Shown: positions 7,639 to 42,063 of the stretch, piece by piece
How positions within the stretch are numbered: position 1 is the first letter of the stretch
Layout: the number at the start of each line of letters is the position of its first letter
Origin: Bacteroidota bacterium
Lineage (GTDB): Bacteria; Bacteroidota; Bacteroidia; Flavobacteriales_E; Vicingaceae
DNA length: 64,000 nt
Reading direction: 5' to 3'
Assembly (NCBI GenBank): GCA_013112545.1
Contig: JABFGJ010000004.1
Location: 124,001-188,000, forward strand
The notes under the pieces: model-generated
Told to the model about the DNA's origin: nothing
The model's input: only the letters and a program-made list of their open reading frames with translations
Database searches by the model: none
Program-made: the position numbers and the translations under genes

Positions 7639-8656
7639 CTATTTAATTACAGCTATTCAGCAAATAGGAATAGGAGTTAAAGATGCCGACCAAGCTTGGG
7701 ATTGGTATAGAAAACACTTGGGTTTTGATTTGCCTATTTTCAGCGATGAAGCCGAAGCGAGTTTAATGTTTAATTATACTGGTGGAAATGTGCATCGTAG
7801 AAATGCCATCTTGGCTATGAATGTGCAAGGTGGGGGAGGATTTGAAATCTGGCAGTTTACTAGCAGAGAACCCAAAGCTGCTGCCTTTGAAATTCAAGAA
7901 GGTTTGTTGGGAATTACGAGCATACATTTGCGTTGCAAGTCGGTTAACTTAGCTCATGAATATTTTGATCAATTAAAGGAAGTTAGTATTCAACCCATAG
8001 AGAAAGACGCTATTGGCCGCAGCTTTTTTAATATGAAAGACCCTTTTGGGAATGCTTTTAAAATCATAGAAGACGACTATCAATTACTGAAAACAGATTA
8101 TGTTGTCGGTGGGATAATCGGTTTGACAATCGGTGTTTCCAACTTGGAAAAGTCCATACATTTTTACAAAGAAGTGCTGCATTTCGATCAAGTGAGTGAG
8201 CATTTTAAAACTGGTGATATTGCTAAGGTTTATCTAAAATCTTCTGAACAACGGAAGGGGACTTTTAGTAAGCTATTAGCTAGAAATTGTATCGAATTGG
8301 TAGAAAATCCAACTTTAAACAATCGACATATTTATGAGAATAGGTATTGGGGAGATTTAGGTTTTATCCATGTGTGTTTTGATGTGCAACAAATGGATTC
8401 CTTAAGGGAAAAAGCAAAAGTTGTAGAATATCCTTTTAAAGTAGATAGCGATAACAGCTTTAACATGGGCGAAGCAGCTGGACAATTTGCATACATTGAA
8501 GATCCAGACAAAACCTTAATCGAATTGGTAGAAACCCATAAGATTCCAATCAATAAAAAAATGGGGTTGTATTTGAATCTAAAGAATAAAAAAACAAGAA
8601 AACCTCTTGCAAAATGGATGATTAAGTTATTGGCTTTAAATCGCGTCAAAAATTAA
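7631..8656 (+). CDS. Two-domain VOC (glyoxalase/dioxygenase) family protein
   Basis: This 341-residue protein has two vicinal-oxygen-chelate domains, residues about 5-150 (IQQIGIGVKDADQAWDWYRKHLGF) and about 160-305 (IIGLTIGVSNLEKSIHFYKE), each with the paired beta-alpha-beta-beta-beta pattern and a closing acidic residue (IIEDD; LIELVE). VOC enzymes bind a divalent metal and include glyoxalase I and extradiol dioxygenases. The substrate is unknown, but coupling to the SDR gene suggests successive steps on one metabolite. Its 3' end overlaps the convergent acyltransferase gene by 21 bases. Confidence 0.88.
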   Translation: MDDYLITAIQQIGIGVKDADQAWDWYRKHLGFDLPIFSDEAEASLMFNYTGGNVHRRNAILAMNVQGGGGFEIWQFTSREPKAAAFEIQEGLLGITSIHLRCKSVNLAHEYFDQLKEVSIQPIEKDAIGRSFFNMKDPFGNAFKIIEDDYQLLKTDYVVGGIIGLTIGVSNLEKSIHFYKEVLHFDQVSEHFKTGDIAKVYLKSSEQRKGTFSKLLARNCIELVENPTLNNRHIYENRYWGDLGFIHVCFDVQQMDSLREKAKVVEYPFKVDSDNSFNMGEAAGQFAYIEDPDKTLIELVETHKIPINKKMGLYLNLKNKKTRKPLAKWMIKLLALNRVKN

Positions 8657-9898
8657 TTCATCTAAGGTCTTTTTAGCTTGCTTAAATTTTTTGTAATCAG
8701 AATCCGAGTGCTGAGCTGCCTCGGATTTTTTCATTCGCTTGTAGCGAAAGGTTGATAGAATAGTAGCTGTTTTATTTTTGAATAAAAGATAAGCCTTTCC
8801 GGATATCACTAAGGCAAAAGGGAATAAGAAAAATAGAGGGTGAAGCAACAAGCCGAATAAAATGCTAAGCAATGCAGCCCATAAGATCCACAATAAAGTA
8901 CCAAGAACTAGTTTGACAGAATCGTAAAACTCAATCAACTTTACTTTTTTATTGCTGATGTAATTAGCCACTGCAAATGGCATTCTATTGAAACAATAAC
9001 CCAAACAAGCGAGGGGGCTTAATATAATAACAAGGATTAAATCCACTAAGCTATAACTACTTTTTGCTAAACCAAAACCATATTTATGTTGCAGCTTTTT
9101 TATTGTATGAATCGCATTATTTAGCATTTCCCACTGCTCTATACGATTGCTTTTTAAATATGCTAAGCGCTCAGATATATTCTTTAAATAAGCTAGTTTA
9201 TAATGCTTGTTTTCAACTTGTTCGGCAATACTATCAAATACTTCTTCATCTTCAGTCTCTATGCTTGCTTGTTTTAACGAATTCAATAGAGTTTGATTGA
9301 AATTTATATAACATTGGTTTGCACTTTCTTGATAAGCTTCTTGATAGGGTTTTAAGGCAATTTTATCTTGTATTGAAATTAAAATGTTGTTGCCAAATTG
9401 TGCCGCTTTTTGATAATTGATTCCAATGGGGACGACATGGGTTTTTAATTTAAACTGATTCTTTTGCTCAGCTCCAAAGCCAATACGAGTAAGCCCTTTT
9501 TTTAAGGGCCTCACTTTTTTATCGATTAAACTGATTCCTTCTGCAAAAATTAATATTGAGCCTTGATTTTCTAGTATAGCATAACATTCACTAAAAGTTT
9601 TGTCGTTTTTTGTGAGATTTTCTAAACCTTCTTGCAAACGATAAATTGGAATAAGATTTAATTTCCTCAGAATAAAATCAGCCCAACTTTTCTTAAAAAC
9701 GTCAGACCTGGCTAAAAAATAGAGTGGTTGTTTAAGAATAGTAGCTAGTATGATGGCATCTAAAAATGAGTTGGGATGCGTAGCTGCGATAATATAAGAT
9801 TCATTCTTGTCTAAGTCTATTTTACCTTCTACTTTAATGTCTTTATAATAAACAAGCAGACTTTGCTTCATGATGAATTGTAAAATCCGATATATCAT
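8636..9898 (-). CDS. Lysophospholipid acyltransferase family protein (PlsC-like)
   Basis: This 420-residue protein has the glycerolphosphate acyltransferase motif I as ATHPNSFLDA (His41, Asp47, H-x5-D spacing as in Gpt2/Sct1-type enzymes) and motif III FAEGIS. Two hydrophobic segments lie in the C-terminal half (about 280-310 and 335-375), placing it at the inner membrane. The expected reaction is acylation of a glycerol-phosphate or lysophospholipid. It lies two bases downstream of the GT39-like gene on the same strand, so it is probably the last gene of that operon. Confidence 0.85.
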   Translation of the reverse strand: MIYRILQFIMKQSLLVYYKDIKVEGKIDLDKNESYIIAATHPNSFLDAIILATILKQPLYFLARSDVFKKSWADFILRKLNLIPIYRLQEGLENLTKNDKTFSECYAILENQGSILIFAEGISLIDKKVRPLKKGLTRIGFGAEQKNQFKLKTHVVPIGINYQKAAQFGNNILISIQDKIALKPYQEAYQESANQCYINFNQTLLNSLKQASIETEDEEVFDSIAEQVENKHYKLAYLKNISERLAYLKSNRIEQWEMLNNAIHTIKKLQHKYGFGLAKSSYSLVDLILVIILSPLACLGYCFNRMPFAVANYISNKKVKLIEFYDSVKLVLGTLLWILWAALLSILFGLLLHPLFFLFPFALVISGKAYLLFKNKTATILSTFRYKRMKKSEAAQHSDSDYKKFKQAKKTLDELIFDAI

Positions 9899-29076: not shown

Positions 29077-30374
29077 AACGCGTTTTAATCATCGCCTATT
29101 ATTGGCCTCCAAGTGCAGGCTCGGGAGTGCAACGTTGGTTAAAATTCACAAAATATTTACCTGAATTTGGTTGGCAGCCAGTAGTTTTTACTCCAGACAA
29201 TCCTAGTTTCGAACTTAAGGATGAAGGCTTATTGAAAGAGGTTCCCAAAGATGCCGAAATTTTAAAAATTCCAATTTGGGAACCATATAGTTTACACAAT
29301 AAGATTCTTGGAAATAAAAAAAAGAATGAAAGTAATGCGGGGATAGTAGCATCTCCAAAAACTGGCTTTTCTGCTAAGTTATCAAACTGGATAAGGGGAA
29401 ACATATTTATTCCAGATCCAAAAATATTTTGGAAAAAACCAGCAGTTAAATTTCTAAACAGATATTTAAAGCAAAACCCAGTAGATGTTATAATTTCAAC
29501 AGGAACACCTCATAGTATGCACCTGATTGCAAAAGCAGTGGCAAAAACTAATAATCTACCTTGGCTTGCAGATTTTAGAGATCCCTGGAGCAAACTTGAT
29601 ATGCTTCAAAGCTATAGCATAACTGCTTCAAATTTTAAAAAATATCAGAAACTAGAAAAAGGGGTTTTAGAAGCTGCAGATTTATGTGTTACTACATCCC
29701 GTGTTTGGAAAGATGATTTTAAAAAATTAGGGGCAAAAAAATCAATTTGCATCACGAATGGGTACGACAAAAGTGATTTTAATTTTGAGATTGAACCATA
29801 TCAAAATTTTGTAATTAGTCATTTTGGCTTATTAAATCATTTGAGAAACCCAAAAGAATTATGGCAGGCTTTAGCTGAATTGTGCCATGAGAATGAATCG
29901 TTTTCAAAAGATTTGAAAATCCATTTAGGAGGTTCTATTTCAGATGAGAATATTGAACACATTAAAAAGCACACTATTTTGGCGAATCATTTAGTTATTT
30001 TTGATTATTTAAGCCACCAGCGTGTAATAGAAGAGTACCTTAAGTCTTCGGTATTACTTTTATTGTTGTTTAACTCAGAGAGCGGGATTGGTAATATACC
30101 TGGAAAACTGTTTGAATATTTAGCAGCACAAAAACCGATATTAGCATTTGGCGCCGGAGCAGGAGATACTAAAGAAATTATAGAGAGCTGTAGAGTTGGT
30201 AGTTACTTTAACTATAAAGAATCCAATGTTGAAGAAATTAAAAGTACACTACTCGAAATGTATAAGAACTTTAAAAAAGACGAAACATATAATGCGGTAG
30301 AAATAGAGCGTTATAGTCGTCAAAGTTTGACAAAAGATTTGGCTCAAGAATTAAATAAACTAATTGAAAAATAA
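29073..30374 (+). CDS. GT-B glycosyltransferase, family 4-like
   Basis: This 433-residue cytoplasmic protein starts with the GT4-type N-terminal strand and loop KRVLIIAYYWPPSAGSGVQRW (Gly-rich acceptor side). The C-terminal donor side contains GIGNIPGKLFEYLAAQKPILA, the conserved nucleotide-sugar motif with Glu. The start is TTG at 29073, overlapping the TGA of the YfhO gene. It is the first enzyme of the 29-42 kb glycan locus and probably adds a sugar to a lipid-linked repeat unit; the donor cannot be told from sequence alone. Confidence 0.88.
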   Translation: MKRVLIIAYYWPPSAGSGVQRWLKFTKYLPEFGWQPVVFTPDNPSFELKDEGLLKEVPKDAEILKIPIWEPYSLHNKILGNKKKNESNAGIVASPKTGFSAKLSNWIRGNIFIPDPKIFWKKPAVKFLNRYLKQNPVDVIISTGTPHSMHLIAKAVAKTNNLPWLADFRDPWSKLDMLQSYSITASNFKKYQKLEKGVLEAADLCVTTSRVWKDDFKKLGAKKSICITNGYDKSDFNFEIEPYQNFVISHFGLLNHLRNPKELWQALAELCHENESFSKDLKIHLGGSISDENIEHIKKHTILANHLVIFDYLSHQRVIEEYLKSSVLLLLLFNSESGIGNIPGKLFEYLAAQKPILAFGAGAGDTKEIIESCRVGSYFNYKESNVEEIKSTLLEMYKNFKKDETYNAVEIERYSRQSLTKDLAQELNKLIEK

Positions 30375-30375
30375 T

Positions 30376-31347
30376 ATGTGCGCTTTTTTATCAAAACTAC
30401 TAGACGCTCCCACAGAGCCTAAAGGGAAAGCTTTTGAAGATCCTATATTTCTATTAGGTATTATGAGAAGTGGCACAACTTTATTGATGAATATTTTATC
30501 TGAGCATCCTCAATTATTGAAAGTTGGATTTGAATTAAATAAAGTATGGACTGAAATTGGAGGAGCACCTTGTTCTGAAACTTGTGAAGCTAGAACGGAT
30601 GAAGATTTTAATTCCGTTTACACAAACAATATGACATCTTACTTTACAAAATACATAGAGGAATCTAAAAGTATTAAAAGGCATTTAGCAAGGTATTCTG
30701 CAAAAAGGCATCACGGTTCAGGTGGGGTTTTTTACGATTGGGATAATATAAGATTGATGAATAAATCACCACATTTATCAAATAAAGTGAAGTATATTCA
30801 TGCAATGTATCCTAATGCAAAATTTGTAGTGATTATGCGTTCACTTGAAGGACAAGTATCTAGTATGAAAATGCATTTTTTAAAACTAAATAAATCAAGC
30901 AATTGGAGTTTTTATTTACCAAATAACAAAACATCATGTTGGACAAATATTAAAGGTAAGGTATCAGCTGATTATGACCCTGAAAGGTTATTTCCAAGTA
31001 ACTTTAATTTACTTTCCGAAGCTTGGTTAAGGTTAAATACTAAAATCCTAAAGGATTTAGAAGGGATTCCACAAGATCAAAAGTATTTGTTATCATATGA
31101 AGAATTGATGGCAAATCAAGAAAGAAAACTAAAGGATGTGTTTGAATTTCTAAAACTTGAAAAACAACACAATGCAAAAGTTGAAAAAATTATTAAAAAA
31201 AATAGGCGAATACATAACACAACAACAAAAGGCAATCCAATTGATAAATGGAAAAAGTATTTAGATGAATTTGAAATTGATAGTCTTGTAAATTTTAAAA
31301 ATGAGCATGAATCTGATATTGAGTTTGTAATTGAAAAATTTAAATAA
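30376..31347 (+). CDS. Sulfotransferase family protein
   Basis: This 323-residue protein has the PAPS 5'-phosphosulfate-binding loop FLLGIMRSGTTLL near residues 25-37 and the 3'-phosphate region (FVVIMRSLEGQVSS). C-terminal SYEELMANQERKLKDVFEFL is also typical of bacterial sulfotransferases of the Sulfotransfer_3 type. It should transfer sulfate from PAPS to a sugar hydroxyl. ATG at 30376, one base after the preceding stop, is preferred to the TTG at 30364. Its place between two glycosyltransferases suggests a sulfated surface glycan. Confidence 0.88.
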   Translation: MCAFLSKLLDAPTEPKGKAFEDPIFLLGIMRSGTTLLMNILSEHPQLLKVGFELNKVWTEIGGAPCSETCEARTDEDFNSVYTNNMTSYFTKYIEESKSIKRHLARYSAKRHHGSGGVFYDWDNIRLMNKSPHLSNKVKYIHAMYPNAKFVVIMRSLEGQVSSMKMHFLKLNKSSNWSFYLPNNKTSCWTNIKGKVSADYDPERLFPSNFNLLSEAWLRLNTKILKDLEGIPQDQKYLLSYEELMANQERKLKDVFEFLKLEKQHNAKVEKIIKKNRRIHNTTTKGNPIDKWKKYLDEFEIDSLVNFKNEHESDIEFVIEKFK

Positions 31348-31384
31348 TATATTTGATTAAGAAAATAACTAAAACGAAATCAAA

Positions 31385-32611
31385 ATGACTAAACTTTTAC
31401 TAAGCGCCTTTGGGATAATACTTTTTATTTCAACAAGTCAAGCACAAGTATGGACTCAGAAAGCTAATTTTCCAGGTCATGCAAGAGTAAATCCAATTGT
31501 TTTTGAGATGGGAGGAAAGGGCTATCTTTATGGGGGAGCTAGCAATGTTTTAGCACAAACATCAACAGTTTATAAAGATCTTTGGGAGTATAACCCTGTA
31601 ACTGATACATGGATACAACTTGCAAATTCAAACTCAAGTGGAATTGTAGCTGGTATCGGTTTTTCTTATAACAATGAAGGTTATGTTGGTTTAGGCTGGG
31701 ATGGATCTACAAATCATTCAGGGATTTATAAATATAGTCGTACTACTAATAGTTGGTCTTTTGTTACAAATTACGCTGGACAAGGTGTTAGAAATTCATA
31801 TTTTGCTTTAGTTGGGAATTTGCTTTATGTTGCAGCTGGAAGTGATGTAATATCTAGCTCTACTAGTATAATTAGGAAAGATTTTTGGACATATAATCTA
31901 AATACTAACCAGTGGATTCAATTGTCTGATTTACCATTTGGTAAAAGATCATCTGGTATTTCTTTTTCTCATGGGATTAATTTATACTTCGGGTTTGGAA
32001 CTGATGGTACAACTGGTAATAACAAAAAGGATTTATGGCAATATAATACTCAAACAGCAGTATGGACTCAAATTATAGGTTTTCCAGGTGTTCCACGAAT
32101 TCACCCTACAATATCAAAAGTTTATAATAAAGTTATTATAGGAGGTGGGCATCAATTTGGTGTTGGTCAAGAATTATTAGATTATTATGAATTAGATCTA
32201 AATACAATGACATGGAAATCAATAACTAGTTTTACAAATGGTCAAAGATCTTTAAGTAAATCGATTGATATAAATAATAAAGCTTATATCCTTTGTGGTA
32301 ATAATGTTCAGAATAGTGCATTAAAAGATGTTTGGGAATTAAGCTATAGTTCAGTGGGACTAGAAACTATTGAAAATATAGAGTTTAAAATATACCCACA
32401 ACCTGTTTCTAATCAATTGTTTATTGAGTCGGGCACTGATGTAGAACTGCTTGTTCAGATGTATGATTTAAATGGTAGGGTTGTGATTCAAAAAAAAATA
32501 GATAATCAATTTAACATGCTTGATGTCACAGCAATAAAGTCAGGAATGTATCATTTGAAAATAATATCAAACCAGAAATCTATATCTAAAAAAATTATTA
32601 TTTCTCACTAA
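31385..32611 (+). CDS. Kelch-repeat protein with T9SS sorting domain
   Basis: This 408-residue protein has a signal peptide (ending STSQAQ, about residue 20), about six Kelch-type blades with repeated DLWEYNPVTDTWIQL, DFWTYNLNTNQWIQL and DLWQYNTQTAVWTQI patterns, and a C-terminal T9SS type A domain (from about 335: FKIYPQPVSNQLFIESG). It should be a cell-surface or secreted beta-propeller. Finding a T9SS cargo gene inside a glycan locus is unusual; it may bind the glycan. It is separated from neighbours by short gaps and may have its own promoter. Confidence 0.88.
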   Translation: MTKLLLSAFGIILFISTSQAQVWTQKANFPGHARVNPIVFEMGGKGYLYGGASNVLAQTSTVYKDLWEYNPVTDTWIQLANSNSSGIVAGIGFSYNNEGYVGLGWDGSTNHSGIYKYSRTTNSWSFVTNYAGQGVRNSYFALVGNLLYVAAGSDVISSSTSIIRKDFWTYNLNTNQWIQLSDLPFGKRSSGISFSHGINLYFGFGTDGTTGNNKKDLWQYNTQTAVWTQIIGFPGVPRIHPTISKVYNKVIIGGGHQFGVGQELLDYYELDLNTMTWKSITSFTNGQRSLSKSIDINNKAYILCGNNVQNSALKDVWELSYSSVGLETIENIEFKIYPQPVSNQLFIESGTDVELLVQMYDLNGRVVIQKKIDNQFNMLDVTAIKSGMYHLKIISNQKSISKKIIISH

Positions 32612-32684: not shown

Positions 32685-33917
32685 TTGTTGAACAATTTCT
32701 TAAATAAGTTAGCATTAAATTTTAAAAAAGCAGAGTTAAAATTTAAAGAGTGGAAGTATATTTTTCCTGATTTTTTATTTTTTTTTCTATCGTCTAAAAA
32801 GAAGTCAAATTCTTCTTCAATAATCTTTGTTGGAACAGTAATGCATGGAAGAATTGCTAGAATTGCAAAATGGATTAAAAGGGAAGATAATAGAATGCTA
32901 ATTTTAGTTTGTAGTGAAAATGGATTTGCTCATAAACTTTCAAATGATTCTTTTGATAATGTTTATTTGTTTAGAAATAAATGGCATTTAAAAAAGATAC
33001 TTCATAATTTAGATCATTCTACAAATATATTTCACTTATTTGGACCGCCTTATATAGCTGCTTACGAAGCTGTAAAAGAAGTCAAATTAGGGTTTAAAGT
33101 TTTCGATTACCAAGACCTAATGATTACTAATTTCGGCTTAACACCACCATTCAATTATATGAAAAATGAGTTGATTAAAGAAGAGATTATTCTAAAAACA
33201 GTAAATGGAATAGTAAATCATTCACTTGAATTACAAGCTGCTAAGAAATATTATGGAAAAATAAATGCCAAGAAACTATTTTTCCCAAATTATACAGACA
33301 ACGATTTCTTTCAATTAAAGAAGAAAACATTAAACAATGAAATTCATTTGGTTTATGTGGGTAGTATCCATTCTGCTTATCGGAATAAAGATTATTTTGG
33401 AGGAACTCAACTTCATTGGTTAATTAAAACTTTAAATGAACAAAAAATACATTTACATATATATCCTGCTCCAACTAACTTAAAAGAGCATATTGTAGAT
33501 TATATTGAGATGGATAAAAGTTTGCCTTATTTTCATTTACACGAATCGATAAGTCAATCAGACTTATCGAAAGAGTTGGTAAACTTTGATTTTGGAATAC
33601 TCCCATTTTTTCACCGAACAAATAAAAAATCTGATAACAAAAGGATTTATTCTACTACTTTAAAAATGTTTAATTTTTTTGAAGCAGGTTTGCCAATTAT
33701 AATAGGAGAAGATGTAAATTTTCAAAATTTTATGGCAAATAAATATGGTGGTGGAATTAAAGCAAGTTGGGATGATTTTCATCACCTAAAACCATTAATA
33801 GAAAAAAATAATTATGAAAGTTTGGTTAATTCAATTGAGAAAAAAAGAAATAATCTATCTTTAAAAAATAAGATTAATAAATTATTGGATTTTTATAATT
33901 TAATTGGGGAAGAATAA
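32685..33917 (+). CDS. GT-B fold glycosyltransferase
   Basis: This 410-residue protein shows the two Rossmann-like halves of GT-B enzymes. The C-terminal half begins at EIHLVYVGSIHSAYRNKDYF and holds TTLKMFNFFEAGLPIIIGE, the donor-binding motif with the conserved Glu. No signal peptide is present, so it is cytoplasmic or membrane-associated. The start is TTG (32685 or 32688), as the first in-frame ATG lies about 50 residues in. Base composition is even more AT-rich than neighbours, as often seen in surface-glycan genes. The donor is unknown. Confidence 0.8.
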   Translation: MLNNFLNKLALNFKKAELKFKEWKYIFPDFLFFFLSSKKKSNSSSIIFVGTVMHGRIARIAKWIKREDNRMLILVCSENGFAHKLSNDSFDNVYLFRNKWHLKKILHNLDHSTNIFHLFGPPYIAAYEAVKEVKLGFKVFDYQDLMITNFGLTPPFNYMKNELIKEEIILKTVNGIVNHSLELQAAKKYYGKINAKKLFFPNYTDNDFFQLKKKTLNNEIHLVYVGSIHSAYRNKDYFGGTQLHWLIKTLNEQKIHLHIYPAPTNLKEHIVDYIEMDKSLPYFHLHESISQSDLSKELVNFDFGILPFFHRTNKKSDNKRIYSTTLKMFNFFEAGLPIIIGEDVNFQNFMANKYGGGIKASWDDFHHLKPLIEKNNYESLVNSIEKKRNNLSLKNKINKLLDFYNLIGEE

Positions 33918-33921
33918 ATTA

Positions 33922-34416
33922 ATGAATATGATTAATATAGATAAAGTAAAACTAGGAGACAATGTAGAAATTCACCCATTAGCATTAGTAGAGGACGGTG
34001 TGAGCATTGGTGATAATACGAAAATTGGACCTTTTTGTATAGTTAGAACAGGAGCTAGAATTGGAAAAAACTGCAAATTTACTGCTTATTGTGAAATACG
34101 AAACAATGTAATAATTGGTGATAATACTTCTTTTGGTAGCCGTTGTACTATATCTGCAGATGCTGAAATAGGAAATAATGTAACAATAAAATATAGTTTT
34201 GTTTTAACTGATACACCTGACTTAAAAGAAGGAGATGTTAAAGTAGTTGGAAAAATTGGAGATGGGACATTAATTGGTGCAAATGTAACTTTGATGCCAG
34301 GTTTTAATATTGGAGAAAATGCAATCATTGGAGCTTGTTCGCAAGTGAGAAGCAATGTAGGTGACAATGAAGTTTGGTTTGGCAGTCCTGCAAAATTATT
34401 CAAGAAGAATAATTAG
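33922..34416 (+). CDS. Left-handed beta-helix (hexapeptide) acyltransferase-like protein
   Basis: This 164-residue protein is almost entirely hexapeptide repeats (DGVSIGDNTKIGPFCIV, ARIGKNCKF, NVIIGDNTSF), forming a left-handed beta-helix, and ends with the common FGSPAKLFKK tail seen in sugar O- or N-acetyltransferases of the WbbJ/WlbB type. ATG at 33922 is used because it lies just after the previous stop; a second ATG at 33928 is also possible. Likely acetyl-CoA-dependent acylation of an amino or hydroxyl group on a nucleotide sugar made in this locus. Confidence 0.85.
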   Translation: MNMINIDKVKLGDNVEIHPLALVEDGVSIGDNTKIGPFCIVRTGARIGKNCKFTAYCEIRNNVIIGDNTSFGSRCTISADAEIGNNVTIKYSFVLTDTPDLKEGDVKVVGKIGDGTLIGANVTLMPGFNIGENAIIGACSQVRSNVGDNEVWFGSPAKLFKKNN

Positions 34417-34417
34417 T

Positions 34418-35344
34418 ATGAAATTAAGTCAGATTTTAGATTATCTTAAAGACGAAAATATTCCATTTCATGTTGTCCATGAAATGGAGTTAGATGTTTC
34501 CCCTTCCAACTTTAAGAAGTTTATAGAGAATGGTATATATCATATAACAAGTGGTTTTAATGGGGACTTGAACTCCATTAAAAATAGTGTAATCATTTGC
34601 GACCAAGAGTTAGAAAATGAAAATACTCAGTTGATAGTTGATAATCCACAGTTGGTTCATTATATGGTTGTTGGTCTTTTTAAAGAAAAGCAAGTTAACT
34701 CAATTCATCCAACTGCAATAATTCACCCTAAAGCTAAAATTGGGCAAAATGTACATATTGGAGAATATAGTATAGTTAAAGAAGCTATTATAGAAGATAA
34801 TGTCAGAATTGAGTCACATGTTGTAATTTATAATAAAGTTCACATCAAAAAAGGCACCTTTATAGATAGTAATAGTTGCATAGGACCTGGTGGTTTAGTT
34901 TGGGTTTGGAATGACAAAGGTGAGCGAATAGTTCAGCCACAAATTGGAGGAGTTATTATAGAAGAAGATTGTCACTTAGGAACTGATATAACTATCGTAA
35001 GGGGCTCTTTAGCAGAAGATACTAGAATTGGTAGAGGAACAGTTATAGCACATGGATCTAAAATAGGACATGGGTCTGATATTGGAGAAATGGTTCACAT
35101 GGCAAATAATATTAGCATTGCAGGAAATACTGTAATTGGAAATAGATCATTCTTTGGAAGCGGGAGCGTTGTTCCTCCTAACGTTAAGATTCCTGCAAAT
35201 ACAGTTATTGGGGCAGGAGCAATGGTTAATAAGAATTTTAAAGAAGAATACTTAACTCTTGTAGGTGTACCAGCAAAAATTCTCTACAAAGAAAACTTTA
35301 AATCAAAAGGTAAAGGAACTCCTGTTCCATTTAAGAAGAATTGA
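34418..35344 (+). CDS. LpxD-like N-acyltransferase paralog
   Basis: This 308-residue protein combines an N-terminal non-helix domain (residues 1-90, as in LpxD) with a hexapeptide beta-helix (about 98-280). The segment KIGHGSDIGEMVHMANNISIAGN aligns with the LpxD catalytic segment IAHNVxIGxxxxIA; the His is kept. A QPQIGGVIIEEDCHLG stretch also resembles LpxD. Core LpxD is normally near lpxA and fabZ, so this copy inside a glycan locus is more likely a nucleotide-sugar acyltransferase. It begins one base after the preceding stop (ATG at 34418). Confidence 0.83.
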   Translation: MKLSQILDYLKDENIPFHVVHEMELDVSPSNFKKFIENGIYHITSGFNGDLNSIKNSVIICDQELENENTQLIVDNPQLVHYMVVGLFKEKQVNSIHPTAIIHPKAKIGQNVHIGEYSIVKEAIIEDNVRIESHVVIYNKVHIKKGTFIDSNSCIGPGGLVWVWNDKGERIVQPQIGGVIIEEDCHLGTDITIVRGSLAEDTRIGRGTVIAHGSKIGHGSDIGEMVHMANNISIAGNTVIGNRSFFGSGSVVPPNVKIPANTVIGAGAMVNKNFKEEYLTLVGVPAKILYKENFKSKGKGTPVPFKKN

Positions 35345-35420: not shown

Positions 35421-36398
35421 ATGAGAAAAATTTTTATTACAGGTGGGGCAGGTTATGTTGGAGCTGTCTTAGTGCCCAAGTTGTTAGATAAGGGTTATTA
35501 TGTAACAGTTTTAGATTTAATGATTTATGGGGAAGATGTCTTGCCTAAGCATGATAACTTAAATGCAGTTAAAGGTGATATTCGAGATATTGAATTATTA
35601 AAAAAATTAATTCCTGGTCATGATGCAGTTATTCATCTAGCTTGCATTTCTAACGATCCTAGTTTTGAGTTAAACCCTGAATTAGGAAAATCGATTAACT
35701 TGGATCCATTTGAGCCAATGGTTAGAATTGCTAAAGAAGGAAAAGTTGCTCGGTTTATTTATGCCTCATCTTCATCAGTTTATGGTATTAAAGAAGAGCC
35801 AAATGTTACCGAAGACATGGTTTTAGAACCATTAACCGACTACTCAATATTTAAGGCTGATTGCGAAAAAATATTAAAAAAACATGAATCCGATGACTTT
35901 ACTTGTCTTACAATTAGGCCAGCAACTGTTTGTGGATATTCTCCACGTTTGAGATTGGATTTAGCTGTAAATATTTTAACCAATTTCGCTGTTAACAAAG
36001 GTTTTATCAAAGTTTTTGGTGGGGAACAAAAAAGACCAAATATTCACATACAAGATATGACTGATTTGTATTGTATGGTTTTGGAATTACCACATGAAAA
36101 GATTCATGGGAAAATCTTTAACGCAGGTTATGAGAATTTCAAAATGAAAGAAATAGCCCAGATGGTAAAAAATGTTGTTGGAGATATTGAAATAAGAACA
36201 GAGCCAACAGATGACAATCGTTCTTATCATATCTCTTCAGAGTTAATAAAAAAAGAAATAGGCTTTGAACCGCAACATAGTATTGAAGATGCTGTTCGAG
36301 AACTTAAAAATGCATTTGATGAAGGATTAATCCAAAATTCGTTTGAAAACGAAAAATACTTCAATGTGAAATTAATGCAAAACATCAACCTTCATTAA
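35421..36398 (+). CDS. NAD-dependent sugar epimerase/dehydratase (extended SDR)
   Basis: This 325-residue extended SDR has the NAD motif TGGAGYVG (residues 7-14), a Ser/Thr cluster ASSSSVYG near 115-122 and catalytic Tyr141-Lys145 in YSIFK. It would modify a nucleotide-linked hexose or heptose. The gene is followed with no gap by the aminotransferase, and 76 bases of AT-rich sequence precede it, so it may open a sub-operon running to the flippase gene. Confidence 0.9.
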   Translation: MRKIFITGGAGYVGAVLVPKLLDKGYYVTVLDLMIYGEDVLPKHDNLNAVKGDIRDIELLKKLIPGHDAVIHLACISNDPSFELNPELGKSINLDPFEPMVRIAKEGKVARFIYASSSSVYGIKEEPNVTEDMVLEPLTDYSIFKADCEKILKKHESDDFTCLTIRPATVCGYSPRLRLDLAVNILTNFAVNKGFIKVFGGEQKRPNIHIQDMTDLYCMVLELPHEKIHGKIFNAGYENFKMKEIAQMVKNVVGDIEIRTEPTDDNRSYHISSELIKKEIGFEPQHSIEDAVRELKNAFDEGLIQNSFENEKYFNVKLMQNINLH

Positions 36399-37496
36399 AT
36401 GAAAATCCCATACATTAATTTAGGACTTCAACATCAAAAAGACAAATCTGATATATTAGCTAAAATATCTGAATTGCTTGACTCAGGAATGTTTATCTTA
36501 GGTGATGAAGTAAGGCAGTTTGAAGAATCTTTTGCTGCACTTTGTCAAACTAAATATGCAGTAGGAGTTGCTAACGGAACAGACGCTTTAATGTTGGCGA
36601 TGAAATCATTTGGTATTGGAAAAGGTGATGAAGTAATAACAGCACCAAATTCTTACTTAGCATCTGCATCATCTATAGAATTGATTGGAGCTACAGCTGT
36701 TTTTGCAGATGTTAGAGCTGATTTTAATATTGATCCTTCTGAAATTGAGAAGAAGATAACAAATAAAACCAAAGCAATTATTGCTGTACACCTTACTGGC
36801 AGACCAGCTGATATGGATGCTATTAATAAAATTGCCAAGAAACATAATTTACATGTTATAGAAGATTCAGCTCAGGCGGTTGGGGCTAAATTTAATGGAA
36901 TTTCAACAGGCAATTTAGGAGATATTGGTTGTTTTAGCTTACATCCTCTAAAAAATTTAGCGGCAATAGGAGATGCTGGAATCATAACTACAAATGATAA
37001 AAAGATATATGAATGGCTTTTGAAGGCTAGAACCCATGGAATGAAAAGCAGAGATGAATGTGAATTTTGGAGTCTTAATTCACGTTTAGATGCTATACAA
37101 GCTGCTATTTTAAATATTAAATTTAAAAACCTTGAGGCTTGGACAATAAGAAGAAGAGAAATAGCTGAAAAATATATAAAAGCAATCGGTCATTTTGTTC
37201 AAGTACCTATTGAAAATGAAAATGAATATTCAGTATATCATACTTTTATAATTCAAACAAAGCAGCGTGACGATCTCATGAATTATTTAGCTGAACATGG
37301 TATAGATTCTAAAATTCATTATCCAATTGCGATACACCAACAAGAAGCTGCAGCTTATAACAAAAGCGCAAAAGAAAATTATCCAATTACCAATCAACAA
37401 ATTAGTCAAATTTTAACATTACCTGTTTATCCAGAGTTAAGTGATGAACAAGTTGACTATATAATTGAAACAATTCAACGTTTTTTTACACAATGA
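36399..37496 (+). CDS. DegT/DnrJ/EryC1/StrS family sugar aminotransferase
   Basis: This 365-residue PLP enzyme would aminate a keto nucleotide sugar using glutamate. The family motifs are intact: VANGTDALMLAMKS at about 57-70, EDSAQAVGAKFNG with Asp156, and FSLHPLKNLAAIGDAG with the PLP-binding Lys185. Its ATG directly follows the SDR stop and its own stop overlaps the next SDR start as ATGA. Together with the two acyltransferase-like genes this points to an N-acylated amino sugar. Confidence 0.93.
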   Translation: MKIPYINLGLQHQKDKSDILAKISELLDSGMFILGDEVRQFEESFAALCQTKYAVGVANGTDALMLAMKSFGIGKGDEVITAPNSYLASASSIELIGATAVFADVRADFNIDPSEIEKKITNKTKAIIAVHLTGRPADMDAINKIAKKHNLHVIEDSAQAVGAKFNGISTGNLGDIGCFSLHPLKNLAAIGDAGIITTNDKKIYEWLLKARTHGMKSRDECEFWSLNSRLDAIQAAILNIKFKNLEAWTIRRREIAEKYIKAIGHFVQVPIENENEYSVYHTFIIQTKQRDDLMNYLAEHGIDSKIHYPIAIHQQEAAAYNKSAKENYPITNQQISQILTLPVYPELSDEQVDYIIETIQRFFTQ

Positions 37497-38479
37497 AAAT
37501 ATTAGTAACAGGAGGGTGTGGTTTTATTGGAAGTCATTTAGTGGATCGATTATTAAATGATGGACATAAAGTTATTGTCATAGATAATTGTTCAACAGGA
37601 AGGATACAAAACTTAGAACACCATAAAGGGAATGATAAGTTAGAGGTACATATTTGTGATATTGCCGATTTTGAAGTGATTGAGCCATTTTTTAATGAAA
37701 TAGAAAAGGTATTTCACATTGCAGCTTTAGCAGATATCGTACCTTCAATTCAAATGCCTCAAAAGTATCATCGATCAAATGTTGATGGAACAATAAACGT
37801 TTTAGAAGCGTCTCGTTTACATGGAATTAAACGATTTATTTATGCTGCATCATCTTCATGTTATGGAATTCCAGATATTTATCCAACACCCGAAAACACT
37901 CCGATAGACCCACAATACCCTTATGCATTAACAAAATATATCGGTGAGCAATATGTTCAGCATTGGAATAAAATATATCATTTACCAACCACTTCAATGA
38001 GGTTCTTTAATGTGTATGGCCCAAGGTCTAGAACAAGCGGAACTTATGGTGCTGTTTTTGGCGTTTTTTTAGCTCAAAAACTAGCAAATAAACCATACAC
38101 AATTGTGGGTGATGGCACACAATCAAGAGATTTTACTTATGTAACTGATATTGTTGATGCATGTGTTGCTGCATCTGAATGCGAAGCTGCCATAGGAGAA
38201 GATTTTAATGTTGGAAGTAATAATCATTACACCGTAAATCGCTTAGTTGAGTTATTAGGCGGCGAAAAAACATATATACCAAAAAGACCTGGTGAACCTG
38301 ATTGTACCTTTGCTGATACTACAAAAATTAAGAAAATAGTTGGTTGGTCGCCAAAAGTTAGTTTAGAAGAAGGAGTTCAAAACATGCTAGAGAATATCGA
38401 TTATTGGAGAGAGGCTCCAGTTTGGGATAGTAAATCCATTGCAGAAGCAACAACTGATTGGTTTAAGTATTTGAAATAG
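37493..38479 (+). CDS. NAD-dependent nucleotide-sugar epimerase (GalE/WbpP-like extended SDR)
   Basis: This 328-residue extended SDR has TGGCGFIG at residues 6-13, SSSCYG near 120-125 and Tyr144-Lys148 in YALTK. FFNVYGPR and the RDFTYVTDI stretch are typical of UDP-GlcNAc/UDP-glucose 4-epimerases and related dehydratases. The C-terminal tail (DYWREAPVWDSKSI) is characteristic of epimerases found beside HldE-like fusions. Exact substrate unknown; a heptose or HexNAc nucleotide is plausible from context. Confidence 0.9.
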   Translation: MKILVTGGCGFIGSHLVDRLLNDGHKVIVIDNCSTGRIQNLEHHKGNDKLEVHICDIADFEVIEPFFNEIEKVFHIAALADIVPSIQMPQKYHRSNVDGTINVLEASRLHGIKRFIYAASSSCYGIPDIYPTPENTPIDPQYPYALTKYIGEQYVQHWNKIYHLPTTSMRFFNVYGPRSRTSGTYGAVFGVFLAQKLANKPYTIVGDGTQSRDFTYVTDIVDACVAASECEAAIGEDFNVGSNNHYTVNRLVELLGGEKTYIPKRPGEPDCTFADTTKIKKIVGWSPKVSLEEGVQNMLENIDYWREAPVWDSKSIAEATTDWFKYLK

Positions 38480-38483
38480 ATTC

Positions 38484-40013
38484 ATGACAGATAAAAAAAT
38501 CTTTAATATAAAAAACGTAGGTGATATTTTCACATCTTTAAAAAGTAAAGGGAAAAAAATAGTGCATTGTCATGGTTGTTTTGACCTTATACATCATGGG
38601 CACATCAAGCATTTTGAAGCCGCAAAGAAATTTGGAGATGTATTAGTTGTTACTTTAACAGAAGATCGATATGTAAATAAAGGACCAGATCGACCTTATT
38701 TTAATCATAATATTAGAGCACATAATTTAGCTGCTTTAGAAGTAGTTGATTATGTCGCAATTAATTATTCACCTCAAGCAATTCCTGCAATAAATGCAAT
38801 AAAACCAGATTTTTATGTTAAAGGTCAGGATTATAAGGTTAGTGCTGATGATGTAAGTGGTGGAATTATACTAGAGCGAGATGCTGCAAGAGCAAACGGC
38901 GGCGATTTGGTCTTTACCGAAGAGGTTCAGTTTAGCTCATCAAATCTGATAAATCAGTTTTTTGATAATAAAGATGATAAGGCAAAAGCATTCTTAACTG
39001 GAATTAAAAATAAATATACATACAGTCATTTCACTAAATTATTTGATGAAATATCAAGTAAAAGAGTATTAATAATTGGTGATATCATCCTAGACGAATA
39101 TCAATTTGTAAAGCCAATAGGAAAGGCTTCTAAATCACCAACAATTACAGCAATTAAAGGAGATTCTGAAATATATGCAGGCGGTGTTTTGGCTGTTGCT
39201 AATCATGTAGCAGATTTTGTAGATGAAGTTATTCTAATTTCTACATATGGTAAAAATAAAGAACATGAATATTGGGATTTAATTCAAGCTAACTTACATG
39301 ATAAAGTTACTTTTATTCCTGTTCACACTCCTGAAAGACCTACAGTACTTAAGACTAGAATTGTTGACCAAGTCTTTAGACATAAGTTATTTGAGGTCAT
39401 AGAGATTAAAGATAGCCACCTTGCTGTAAAAATTGAAGACGAGCTAATCAATAAAATTAATGAACACATAAAAACTTGCGATATTAGTTTGGTAGCCGAT
39501 TTTGGGCATGGAGTTATTACCAATAGAATTATTCAGGTATTGCAATCAAGTGCAAACTATTTAGCAGTAAATGCACAGACCAATAGTGCTAATTTAGGTT
39601 ATAACCTGTTGACTAAATATGACTCTTGCGATTATTTTTCTATAGACAAAGGTGAAGCTCACTTAGCTGTTCATGATAAATATGGAGATATGGTTCAAAT
39701 TCAATCTGAATTAAACAATGCAACTCATGCAAAAATTTCTTCAATCACATTGGGTGTTAATGGAACCTCTGTTATGACAAGTGATGGAAATAACATTATA
39801 GTGCCTATTTTTAATTCGGATGTTGTTGATACAATTGGAGCAGGTGATGCATATTTGTCAATAACATCTTTATTAGCTGAATCAAATGCTAGCAAAGAAG
39901 AAATTGCATTTGTTGGAAATGCAGTTGGAGCGATGGCAGTCAAAATTATCGGGAATAAATCTTACATTAGACGTACTGATTTATTAAAATATATAAAAAC
40001 ACTTTTAGCATAA
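38484..40013 (+). CDS. Bifunctional HldE-like enzyme with inverted domain order
   Basis: This 509-residue fusion carries a nucleotidyltransferase first (about 20-160) and a PfkB/ribokinase-type kinase second (about 185-505). The transferase has HGCFDLIHHGH at 30-40 (HxGH), the KGPDRP stretch and VKGQDY, all matching the C-terminal half of E. coli HldE. The kinase has GDIILDEY, an AGG motif and GAGD at 452-455 with catalytic Asp455, matching the N-terminal half of HldE. Together they would phosphorylate heptose-7-phosphate at C1 and activate it with a nucleotide. E. coli HldE has kinase then transferase. The neighbouring GmhA-like gene supports a heptose pathway. Confidence 0.9.
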   Translation: MTDKKIFNIKNVGDIFTSLKSKGKKIVHCHGCFDLIHHGHIKHFEAAKKFGDVLVVTLTEDRYVNKGPDRPYFNHNIRAHNLAALEVVDYVAINYSPQAIPAINAIKPDFYVKGQDYKVSADDVSGGIILERDAARANGGDLVFTEEVQFSSSNLINQFFDNKDDKAKAFLTGIKNKYTYSHFTKLFDEISSKRVLIIGDIILDEYQFVKPIGKASKSPTITAIKGDSEIYAGGVLAVANHVADFVDEVILISTYGKNKEHEYWDLIQANLHDKVTFIPVHTPERPTVLKTRIVDQVFRHKLFEVIEIKDSHLAVKIEDELINKINEHIKTCDISLVADFGHGVITNRIIQVLQSSANYLAVNAQTNSANLGYNLLTKYDSCDYFSIDKGEAHLAVHDKYGDMVQIQSELNNATHAKISSITLGVNGTSVMTSDGNNIIVPIFNSDVVDTIGAGDAYLSITSLLAESNASKEEIAFVGNAVGAMAVKIIGNKSYIRRTDLLKYIKTLLA

Positions 40014-40019
40014 AATTCC

Positions 40020-40580
40020 ATGTTTAGCCAATATCTCAATTCGTTTGAAAAAGTACTATCTGAAACAAAATCTACTCTAAAAGATGGAGTAGGGATTGGC
40101 TTAGATGATTGTTTTCTGAAAGTTAATGAAATTCTAAAGGAGACTAAGTTGACAGGTAATCGAATTTATTTAGTTGGGAACGGAGGTAGCAGCGGTATTG
40201 TTTCTCATGCTGCAGTTGATTTTTTAAATGCATGTGGGTTTAAAGCGCACGCAATTACCGATAATAGTTTGTTGACTTGTATCGCAAATGATTATGGTTA
40301 CGAAAATGTTTTTTCTCAACCATTGGATACTTTAATTGACGAGAATGATGTTTTAATAGCGGTAAGTAGTTCAGGTAATTCAATGAATATAGTAAATGCT
40401 TGCCAAAAAGCAAAAGAAAAAGGAGCGATAGTACTCAGTTTTTCAGGCTTCAAGTCAGATAATAAATTAAGAACCCAAGGAGATTATAACTTTTGGTTAA
40501 ACGATATGCATTATGGTCGTGTTGAGATCGGACATTCGTTACTTATTCATTACATTACAGATAATCTAGGAAAAAAATAA
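40020..40580 (+). CDS. SIS-domain protein, GmhA-like sedoheptulose-7-phosphate isomerase
   Basis: This 186-residue SIS protein has GNGGSSG at about 53-59, SSSGNS and a C-terminal VEIGHSLLIHYITD. It aligns by eye with GmhA, which turns sedoheptulose 7-phosphate into heptose 7-phosphate. The position of catalytic E. coli Glu65 is Asp67 here, while the His180 equivalent (His177) is kept; numbering recalled, not aligned by software. It lies six bases after the HldE-like gene, so the two steps are encoded together. The Glu-to-Asp change leaves room for a different ketose phosphate. Confidence 0.88.
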   Translation: MFSQYLNSFEKVLSETKSTLKDGVGIGLDDCFLKVNEILKETKLTGNRIYLVGNGGSSGIVSHAAVDFLNACGFKAHAITDNSLLTCIANDYGYENVFSQPLDTLIDENDVLIAVSSSGNSMNIVNACQKAKEKGAIVLSFSGFKSDNKLRTQGDYNFWLNDMHYGRVEIGHSLLIHYITDNLGKK

Positions 40581-40581
40581 A

Positions 40582-42063
40582 TTGGGAATCGTTTCCAAAC
40601 AAGCTTCAACTGCAACTGCTCTAAGTTATATTGGAGTTGTTATTGGATTTGTTAATGTTACGCTTTTGATGACCCAACTTTTCTCTAAAGAAGAATTTGG
40701 TTTGCGCGAAATTCTTTTAAATGTTGCAGTTTTTACTTCTCAAATTGCTCACTTAGGGACTTATCGAAGCTTAGTTAAATTCTTTCCTTTCTTTAATGAA
40801 GAAAAACACGATAATGGATTATTGAGCATTGGCTTAATAGTTCCTTTTGTTGGATTTTTAATTTCATTATTGCTAATACTTTTATTCAAATCAAGTATAG
40901 TTAATTTTTATATTGATAAAAGCCCACTTTTTATCGAATACTTTTGGTTTAGCATTCCTTTAATCTTTTTATTGATGTATAATAATGTATTTGAGAGTTA
41001 CTTGCAATCTCGCTCCAATACAGCTTATTCAGCTTTTTTAAAAAACGTGTTCAACCGCCTTGTAATTACATTGCTATTGATTTGTTATTTTTTTAAATGG
41101 ATTGATTTCTATTGGTTTATCGTGTTATTTGTTTTTTCTTATGCTATAAATATTGTATTGTTTGTTCTTTATTTAATCAAAAGAAATGAATTCTCTTTAA
41201 AACTCAATAAACTAAAATTTACAAAACGTGTAAGAAAAGTATATTATAATTATAGTGCATTTTCTATACTTTCAGGTGCATCATCGGTTTTAGTGAATAA
41301 AGTAGATGCACTTATGATTGCAGGTTTTTTAGGTTTAGCATCAACTGCAATTTATGCTAATGCAGTTTATCTATGCATTTTAATAATAATACCTAGCGAT
41401 GCGATTGGTAAAATAGCCATGCCTCTATTGGCTAAAAGTTGGAAGGAAAAAAGATATGACAAAATTGATGAGCTATATAAAAAGTCTTCCTTGTCTCAAT
41501 TTTTGTTTGGAGGTGCAATCTTTGTCTTAATGTGGGGAAGTATTGACAATTTTTTTGCATTACAAGGAAACGGATATTCTGAAGGAAAAATGGTTTTTTT
41601 AATCTTAGCCATTTCAAAGTTAATAAACATGATTTTCGGTGTAAATGGTCAGATTATAAGTGTTTCTAAGTATTATCGATTTGATACTACTACAGCTATT
41701 CTACTTGGGTTTTTAACTATACTGACAAATTATATTTTTATACCAATTTGGCATGTCGAAGGGGCGGCCTTTGCTACAGCATTAACCATTGTTGTATTTA
41801 ATTTGATACGATTCCTTTTCGTATTGGTTAAATTAAAACTGCAACCCTTTACTATTCAAACATTTTATGTGGTTCTTATCTTAGGAATTACTATGCTTAT
41901 TAATGAGTTTTTACCTCATGTTGGAAATATTTATCTAGATACCATTTATAGATCACTAATAATCGCGCTTTTAATATTTACACCAACTTATTTTCTAAAA
42001 GTATCTGAAGATTTTAATCTGATAGTAAACCAATATACTTCAAAATTAAGGGCTAAGAAATAA
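40582..42063 (+). CDS. Wzx-type oligosaccharide flippase
   Basis: This 493-residue membrane protein has about 12-14 hydrophobic segments spread evenly over its length, the pattern of MOP-superfamily flippases that move lipid-linked repeat units across the inner membrane. It starts with TTG one base after the SIS gene stop, placing it in the same message. Charged loops such as RSNTAYSAFLKNVFNR are typical. It ends the plus-strand glycan locus and overlaps the convergent YihY gene by 11 bases. No Wzy polymerase is recognised nearby. Confidence 0.88.
   Translation: MGIVSKQASTATALSYIGVVIGFVNVTLLMTQLFSKEEFGLREILLNVAVFTSQIAHLGTYRSLVKFFPFFNEEKHDNGLLSIGLIVPFVGFLISLLLILLFKSSIVNFYIDKSPLFIEYFWFSIPLIFLLMYNNVFESYLQSRSNTAYSAFLKNVFNRLVITLLLICYFFKWIDFYWFIVLFVFSYAINIVLFVLYLIKRNEFSLKLNKLKFTKRVRKVYYNYSAFSILSGASSVLVNKVDALMIAGFLGLASTAIYANAVYLCILIIIPSDAIGKIAMPLLAKSWKEKRYDKIDELYKKSSLSQFLFGGAIFVLMWGSIDNFFALQGNGYSEGKMVFLILAISKLINMIFGVNGQIISVSKYYRFDTTTAILLGFLTILTNYIFIPIWHVEGAAFATALTIVVFNLIRFLFVLVKLKLQPFTIQTFYVVLILGITMLINEFLPHVGNIYLDTIYRSLIIALLIFTPTYFLKVSEDFNLIVNQYTSKLRAKK

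Follow-up and report, generated by a model that had tools for sequence, protein, structure and literature searches.

Here we report that a stretch of 64,000 nucleotides from a Bacteroidota bacterium of the Vicingaceae (assembly GCA_013112545.1, contig JABFGJ010000004.1, positions 124,001 to 188,000 of the forward strand; the whole stretch is called the window below) carries an adjacent pair of genes, one for a fusion of a nucleotidyltransferase domain to a PfkB-type kinase domain and one for an SIS-domain partner, which we class as a variant on HldE/GmhA whose product probably differs from theirs. With moderate confidence, we regard the pair as catalysing the activation reactions in a dedicated nucleotide-sugar pathway for a surface glycan, which exists in addition to the ordinary ADP-heptose one. 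The original prediction, made from the sequence alone, had described one 509-residue protein with its nucleotidyltransferase before its PfkB kinase (HxGH at 37-40, GAGD at 452-455), followed after six bases by a GmhA-like SIS gene, and the open reading frames, the residues themselves and Pfam bear this out:

38484-40013, + strand: nucleotidyltransferase-PfkB fusion gene, a single open reading frame of 509 residues
38484-38963, + strand: nucleotidyltransferase domain of the fusion (residues 1-160), with Pfam CTP_transf_like at 30-121 and HxGH at 38592-38603
39051-40013, + strand: PfkB kinase domain of the fusion (residues 190-509 plus stop), with Pfam PfkB at 197-487 and GAGD at 39837-39848
40020-40580, + strand: SIS partner gene, 186 residues, Pfam SIS_2, GmhA-like fold

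The first of the two motifs reads HHGH, and the Pfam order of nucleotidyltransferase (30-121) then PfkB (197-487) is the opposite of that in HldE/RfaE, where the kinase comes first. Checked in its homologues, as had been proposed, the order is nucleotidyltransferase-first in all aligned relatives, and 119 aligned members of the fusion family show little or no variation in HxGH and GAGD. The closest sequences come from genomes of the bacterium's own family, at 67-73% identity (for example Flavobacteriales bacterium UBA5081, DIAJ01000005.1). The inverted order is no assembly artefact, since hundreds of genomes share it, as do others from the same family.

The claimed resemblance to HldE and GmhA was also upheld, the nearest solved folds being HldA and GmhA. 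Two AlphaFold models have a mean predicted local distance difference test score of 91 and 97. The kinase is nearest to HldA of B. cenocepacia (Z 33.8, root-mean-square deviation 2.6 over 306 residues), a result that covers the kinase only, since this domain took all matches in the fold search with the whole fusion; the SIS protein is nearest, by Foldseek, to the GmhA structures 2X3Y and 1X92 (TM 0.86). Among NCBIfam models, those for HldE/RfaE and GmhA rank first for the pair, with every score far under the curated cut-off: the fusion reaches 142 of 521 bits with NF008454, 108 of 345 with TIGR02198 (kinase) and 106 of 181.5 with TIGR02199 (nucleotidyltransferase), and the SIS protein 94.9 of 209 bits with the GmhA model TIGR00441. 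The family's stand-alone canonical kinases also just miss the TIGR02198 cut-off, at 311-338 bits. These best profile and fold matches would suit a pair that simply belongs to the ordinary heptose pathway, as would the presence of GmhB in the genome and of transketolase pairs near relatives, which could supply sedoheptulose 7-phosphate. We consider that reading unlikely, given the consistently low scores and three active sites that depart from those of the canonical enzymes.

In the alignment of 119 relatives, the nucleotidyltransferase domain keeps HxGH, KG, RP and a second KG, and the motifs TNG, NSD and STT are replaced in 114-118 of them. Asparagine 346 of TNG has become histidine in 118 and asparagine 375 of NSD threonine in 117, G442 is glutamate in all 119, and threonine 464 of STT is serine in 114; the window protein has CHG for TNG, TED for NSD and SSS for STT. 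The sugar-1-phosphate motifs TNG, NSD, KG, EXTP and KGG have been predicted for HldC (PMC7993394), and known heptose nucleotidyltransferases share the nucleotide motif (F/L)xxGxSTT (PMC11461863). Only KG is fully kept from this set, and (F/L)xxGxSTT was not found in the nucleotidyltransferase of the fusion, which speaks against an ordinary heptose enzyme. The kinase domain retains G199, D204, Y206, K290, R292, D339 and GAGD, whereas the 119 members have other residues, mostly uniform ones, at nine positions that are each invariant in 31 canonical kinases (R31, E35, N55, N59, Q115, R118, K154, D177 and N195 of E. coli HldE), with E35 changed to lysine in 116 and K154 to histidine in every one. 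In the kinase tree, canonical HldA and HldE form one clade (100/95) separate from the fusion family, with long branches that make deeper placement unsafe.

The SIS partner shows the same combination of a conserved core and an altered pocket. In an alignment with 103 SIS proteins of related loci, it has in common with them GNGGS, the SxSGxS phosphate loop (SSSGNS at its residues 116-121) and the histidine corresponding to residue 61 of E. coli GmhA. The metal and catalytic set of E. coli GmhA (His61, Glu65, Gln172, His180) is present only in part, in that the two histidines are kept as H63 and H177 while Asp67 and Glu169 replace the catalytic glutamate and glutamine; Ile60 further replaces an aspartate. 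The E. coli residues E65, Q172 and D58 correspond to E68, Q175 and D61 of B. pseudomallei GmhA. Across the alignment, the E65 position is aspartate in 98 of 102 proteins, the Q172 position glutamate in 100 of 101, and the D58 position isoleucine in 77 and asparagine in 15; the loop with R69 and residue D169 (E. coli GmhA) are deleted in most, and His177 is mostly kept, with methionine instead in 18 proteins, apparently the Bradyrhizobium ones. Canonical GmhA proteins form one clade (100/98), and the window protein lies outside it with its nearest relatives (100/99).

Glu169 aligns directly with the mutated glutamate of the Q175E GmhA structure 5LTZ. In B. pseudomallei GmhA, Q175E binds substrate yet is inactive, and D61A retains 6% activity (PMC5705639); carrying the first of these changes and lacking the second residue, the SIS protein would be a poor fit to an ordinary phosphoheptose isomerase, and it constitutes a natural test of the GmhA mechanism, with a substitution that inactivates GmhA itself. 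A change of this kind that is near universal among the relatives, together with the precedent of DiaA, a non-enzyme relative of GmhA (PMC7705670), could also mean that the SIS protein is a binding, regulatory or epimerising partner and no isomerase, with the fusion activating a sugar phosphate from other enzymes. We find this very improbable, as His63, the phosphate loop and in most cases His177 remain, and as both catalytic residues have changed together (the second from E to D), a pattern more in keeping with a retuned than with a dead site. The loss of the loop after E. coli residue 68 (with R69) and of residue 169 could instead indicate a different pocket, and both PfkB and SIS families handle many sugars, so that the module might activate a shorter or unrelated sugar phosphate of the pentose or hexose class and resemble HldE and GmhA through shared ancestry only. 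This too appears quite unlikely to us: the nearest kinase structure is HldA, ahead of phosphofructokinase-2 and ribokinase, and the transketolase pairs near relatives fit ketoses of five carbons or more without singling out short ones.

A genome-wide profile search places a canonical ADP-heptose set elsewhere in the same genome: GmhA on contig C14 (240.7 bits, above cut-off), an HldA-like kinase on C3 (321.5 bits against a cut-off of 345), GmhB at C4:259070, outside the window, HldC at C1:601800 (193.7 bits, above cut-off) and HldD at C6:12833 (379.8 bits, above cut-off). This answers the earlier question about gmhB in the rest of the genome. Since the genome has GmhA, HldA, GmhB, HldC and HldD complete, the pair in the window is a second system, and as an ordinary heptose pathway it would be redundant. 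Nearly all of 46 genomes from the bacterium's own family have GmhA, the stand-alone kinase and HldC; the fusion is present in 7 of them and is accordingly accessory. The active-site changes, shared as they are by family members from hundreds of bacteria and on dozens of phage contigs, point to a separate, undescribed pathway and not to a shuffled copy of the known one. What had been predicted as a nucleotide-activated heptose for a surface glycan thus holds in its setting, described below, and not in its ordinary activated heptose, with the canonical genes elsewhere and all three active sites altered; the accompanying caveat that the product may differ is supported.

The genes around the pair, all on the same strand, make up a glycan cluster:

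32685-33917, + strand: probable glycosyltransferase (weak NCBIfam sugar-transferase match; relatives in related loci L023 and L024)
33904-34416, + strand: hexapeptide acyltransferase (Pfam Hexapep)
34361-35344, + strand: second hexapeptide (LpxD/NeuD-like) acyltransferase (Pfam/NCBIfam; relative in L023)
35421-36398, + strand: SDR-A, the second of two short-chain dehydrogenases/reductases (SDRs), NAD-dependent epimerase/dehydratase-like (Pfam/NCBIfam)
36399-37496, + strand: DegT/DnrJ/EryC1-type aminotransferase (Pfam DegT, 360 bits)
37493-38479, + strand: SDR-B, GalE-type NAD-dependent epimerase-like, directly 5' of the fusion gene (Pfam/NCBIfam)
40582-42063, + strand: polysaccharide flippase-like membrane protein, directly 3' of the SIS gene (Pfam Polysacc_synt)

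SDR-B, which ends four bases before the fusion gene and is the most conserved neighbour of the pair, falls below the HldD cut-off (TIGR02197, 112.8 against 274.6 bits). It bears on the earlier statement that neither a GmhB phosphatase nor an HldD epimerase is recognised beside the pair, which stands for GmhB and needs correcting in that an epimerase-like protein does lie there. The flippase-like gene keeps its position in the closest relative locus, L023. Profile searches with the neighbour families found no transketolase pair, APH protein, GmhB or member of the DFDNT family (see below) in the window. Just 5' of the cluster, at 30364-32611, lie a gene of sulfotransferase-like type and one for a Kelch protein that ends in a type IX secretion system sorting tail.

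Partner genes provide independent evidence for a pathway, because the 82 related genome loci in our neighbour survey were picked by the fusion protein alone. Neighbours were counted by six-frame profile searches, as simple calling of open reading frames missed genes in GC-rich loci. An SIS gene is present in 57 of the 82 loci and an SDR-B orthologue likewise in 57, in 55 cases upstream on the same strand; SDR-A orthologues occur in 53, every one on the strand of the fusion gene and 47 within 2 kb. This bias in strand and position speaks against a chance association of the SDRs, a judgement made without a random-locus control. DegT relatives turned up in 41 loci, proteins of about 205 residues carrying a DFDNT motif in 36 and APH-type phosphotransferases in 33. 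About half of the loci have a transketolase-N or pyruvate-E1-alpha-like gene, mostly accompanied by its C-terminal partner. Of the 52 loci that have 4 kb on each side, 22 contain SIS and transketolase along with both SDRs. When the 18 Bradyrhizobium loci are set aside, the remaining 64 retain SIS in 39, SDR-B in 39, SDR-A in 35 and transketolase in 33. A GmhB-like gene adjoins a single locus, L086.

The motif of the DFDNT family (L034:13997-14602, L063, L071 and 33 more loci) resembles that of HAD enzymes, and the protein has no significant match in Pfam or NCBIfam; judged by this motif, it is perhaps a candidate phosphatase in the relatives. Searching the bacterium's own genome with the Bradyrhizobium protein found nothing, a negative that proves little as the search had no positive control. 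The 18 Bradyrhizobium loci (within L035-L068) share a cassette in which the SIS gene lies upstream on the opposite strand. Given these Bradyrhizobium carriers, we also considered a link to bradyrhizose, whose O-antigen requires a sugar cluster of unlisted gene content (PMC4743980), and make no claim for it.

Based on these observations, we infer a reaction order, substrate, nucleotide, phosphatase and final product as follows. The SIS protein would convert a phospho-ketose to a phospho-aldose and back, C1 would be phosphorylated by the PfkB domain, a phosphatase encoded elsewhere would strip the distal phosphate, and the nucleotidyltransferase domain would join the sugar-1-phosphate to a nucleotide. 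Products of the upstream SDR, DegT and acyltransferase genes may then epimerise, aminate and acylate the nucleotide sugar, and the surface polysaccharide would leave via the adjoining flippase. The sequence of isomerase, C1 kinase, nucleotidyltransferase, SDRs and aminotransferase is suggested by the protein families; for the phosphatase, the candidates are the housekeeping GmhB or, in relatives, perhaps the DFDNT protein. The ancestry shared with HldA and GmhA and the link to transketolase lead us to a long-chain sugar: a transketolase-type sugar phosphate with seven, possibly eight, carbons is the probable substrate, D-glycero-D-manno-heptose phosphate as the canonical enzymes handle it probably is not, and the likely product is a long-chain sugar that differs from canonical ADP-D-glycero-D-manno-heptose.

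Several points weigh against such a dedicated pathway. We found no characterised enzyme of the fusion family, which leaves resemblance as the basis for the substrate. Two unlike enzymes, the PfkB-type HldA and the GHMP-type HddA, carry out one and the same heptose chemistry, and altered pockets are therefore no proof of a different substrate. About 25 of the 82 loci have no SIS gene in the stretch examined, partly through contig ends, and the window contains neither a transketolase pair nor, near the pair, a phosphatase.

The distribution of the fusion is patchy. A scan with one genome per species returned at least 539 relatives, the best 80 of which come from Bradyrhizobium, Magnetospirillum-type and Azospirillum-type bacteria, Bacteroidetes, Omnitrophota, Elusimicrobia, Verrucomicrobia, Acidobacteria, Chloroflexi and others. 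Within Bacteroidota it is rare (3 of 198 sampled genomes, including that of this bacterium). The 7 carriers in the bacterium's own family include one more distant case, locus L010 of genome G003 (C12:68605-70089), a 539-residue frame that is nucleotidyltransferase-first and has a kinase nearer to canonical HldE (183.9 bits, TIGR02198); here the inverted order may have arisen a second time.

Viral contigs yielded 60 loci (within L103-L162), about 38 of them with a near full-length fusion, and on phage contigs the fusion and SIS genes are often accompanied by a pyruvate-E1/transketolase-like pair. In L111 (3116-20630), the cassette sits among structural genes, between those for a portal protein and a major head protein, whose clusters recur in 14 and 10 viral loci, respectively. 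Two further phages were considered. Prochlorococcus phage P-SSM2 was examined as an unfused nucleotidyltransferase-kinase-isomerase version, but its kinase has canonical HldE residues and its annotated isomerase and second nucleotidyltransferase are neither by sequence: in the region at 8101-8782 (L229), PSSM2_311, annotated as a phosphoheptose isomerase, has a DIDGT HAD-like start, and PSSM2_312, annotated as a nucleotidyltransferase, looks cupin-like. The cultured Caulobacter phage Cr30 is a partial relative only: the Asp/Glu signature is present in its SIS protein, but the PfkB residues are missing from its kinase, which reads as GHMP-type. There (L168:4749-6480), the Asp/Glu SIS gene stands beside that GHMP-type-looking kinase, with an annotated UDP-glucose 4-epimerase nearby.

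It is possible, although we would not yet lean on it, that the fusion and SIS genes belong to a separate, undescribed pathway that extends across many bacterial phyla and tailed phages, uses an isomerase with an Asp/Glu pair instead of the Glu/Gln of GmhA, and makes a nucleotide-activated long-chain amino or branched sugar new to science. Such genes carry no annotation beyond 'PfkB family carbohydrate kinase' or 'SIS domain protein', or are assumed to be makers of ADP-heptose. If a different sugar is made, the pathway would account for some of the surface chemistry seen in many environmental bacteria and in the phages that carry it, and would change which organisms count as producers of the immune signal ADP-heptose.

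Like HldE/RfaE (E. coli b3052), the fusion has two catalytic domains with HxGH and GAGD, an HldE-type nucleotidyltransferase sequence and an HldA-type kinase fold; unlike it, the order is inverted, NCBIfam scores are below cut-off, TNG, NSD, EXTP and STT are lost, and about nine invariant kinase residues are replaced. The SIS protein resembles GmhA in its fold, phosphate loop and metal-site histidines (H61/H180, E. coli numbering) and differs in E65 to Asp, Q172 to Glu, D58 to Ile or Asn, the deletion of the R69 loop and D169, and its position outside the GmhA clade. The recently described NDP-heptose nucleotidyltransferases (HENases) likewise combine kinase and nucleotidyltransferase in one protein and occur in bacteria and viruses, and no phosphatase was found in the viruses, as here; the types described are nucleotidyltransferase, kinase/nucleotidyltransferase and isomerase/kinase/nucleotidyltransferase. 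The two sources for these statements (PMC11461863, PMC11573728) make no mention of a nucleotidyltransferase-first fusion, which the original account by Tang et al. (Science, 2024) may include, and the fusion differs further in lacking the (F/L)xxGxSTT motif. Our literature searches for this domain combination turned up no description of the family.

The lincosamide sugar route of Streptomyces proceeds from a ketose phosphate through an isomerase, a kinase and a nucleotidyltransferase, and then through SDRs and a pyridoxal phosphate-dependent aminotransferase. The lincosamide pathway has octulose 8-phosphate and GDP-octose steps (PMC12945683). The fusion/SIS module appears to follow a logic similar to that of this GDP-octose pathway, which we offer as a working analogy.
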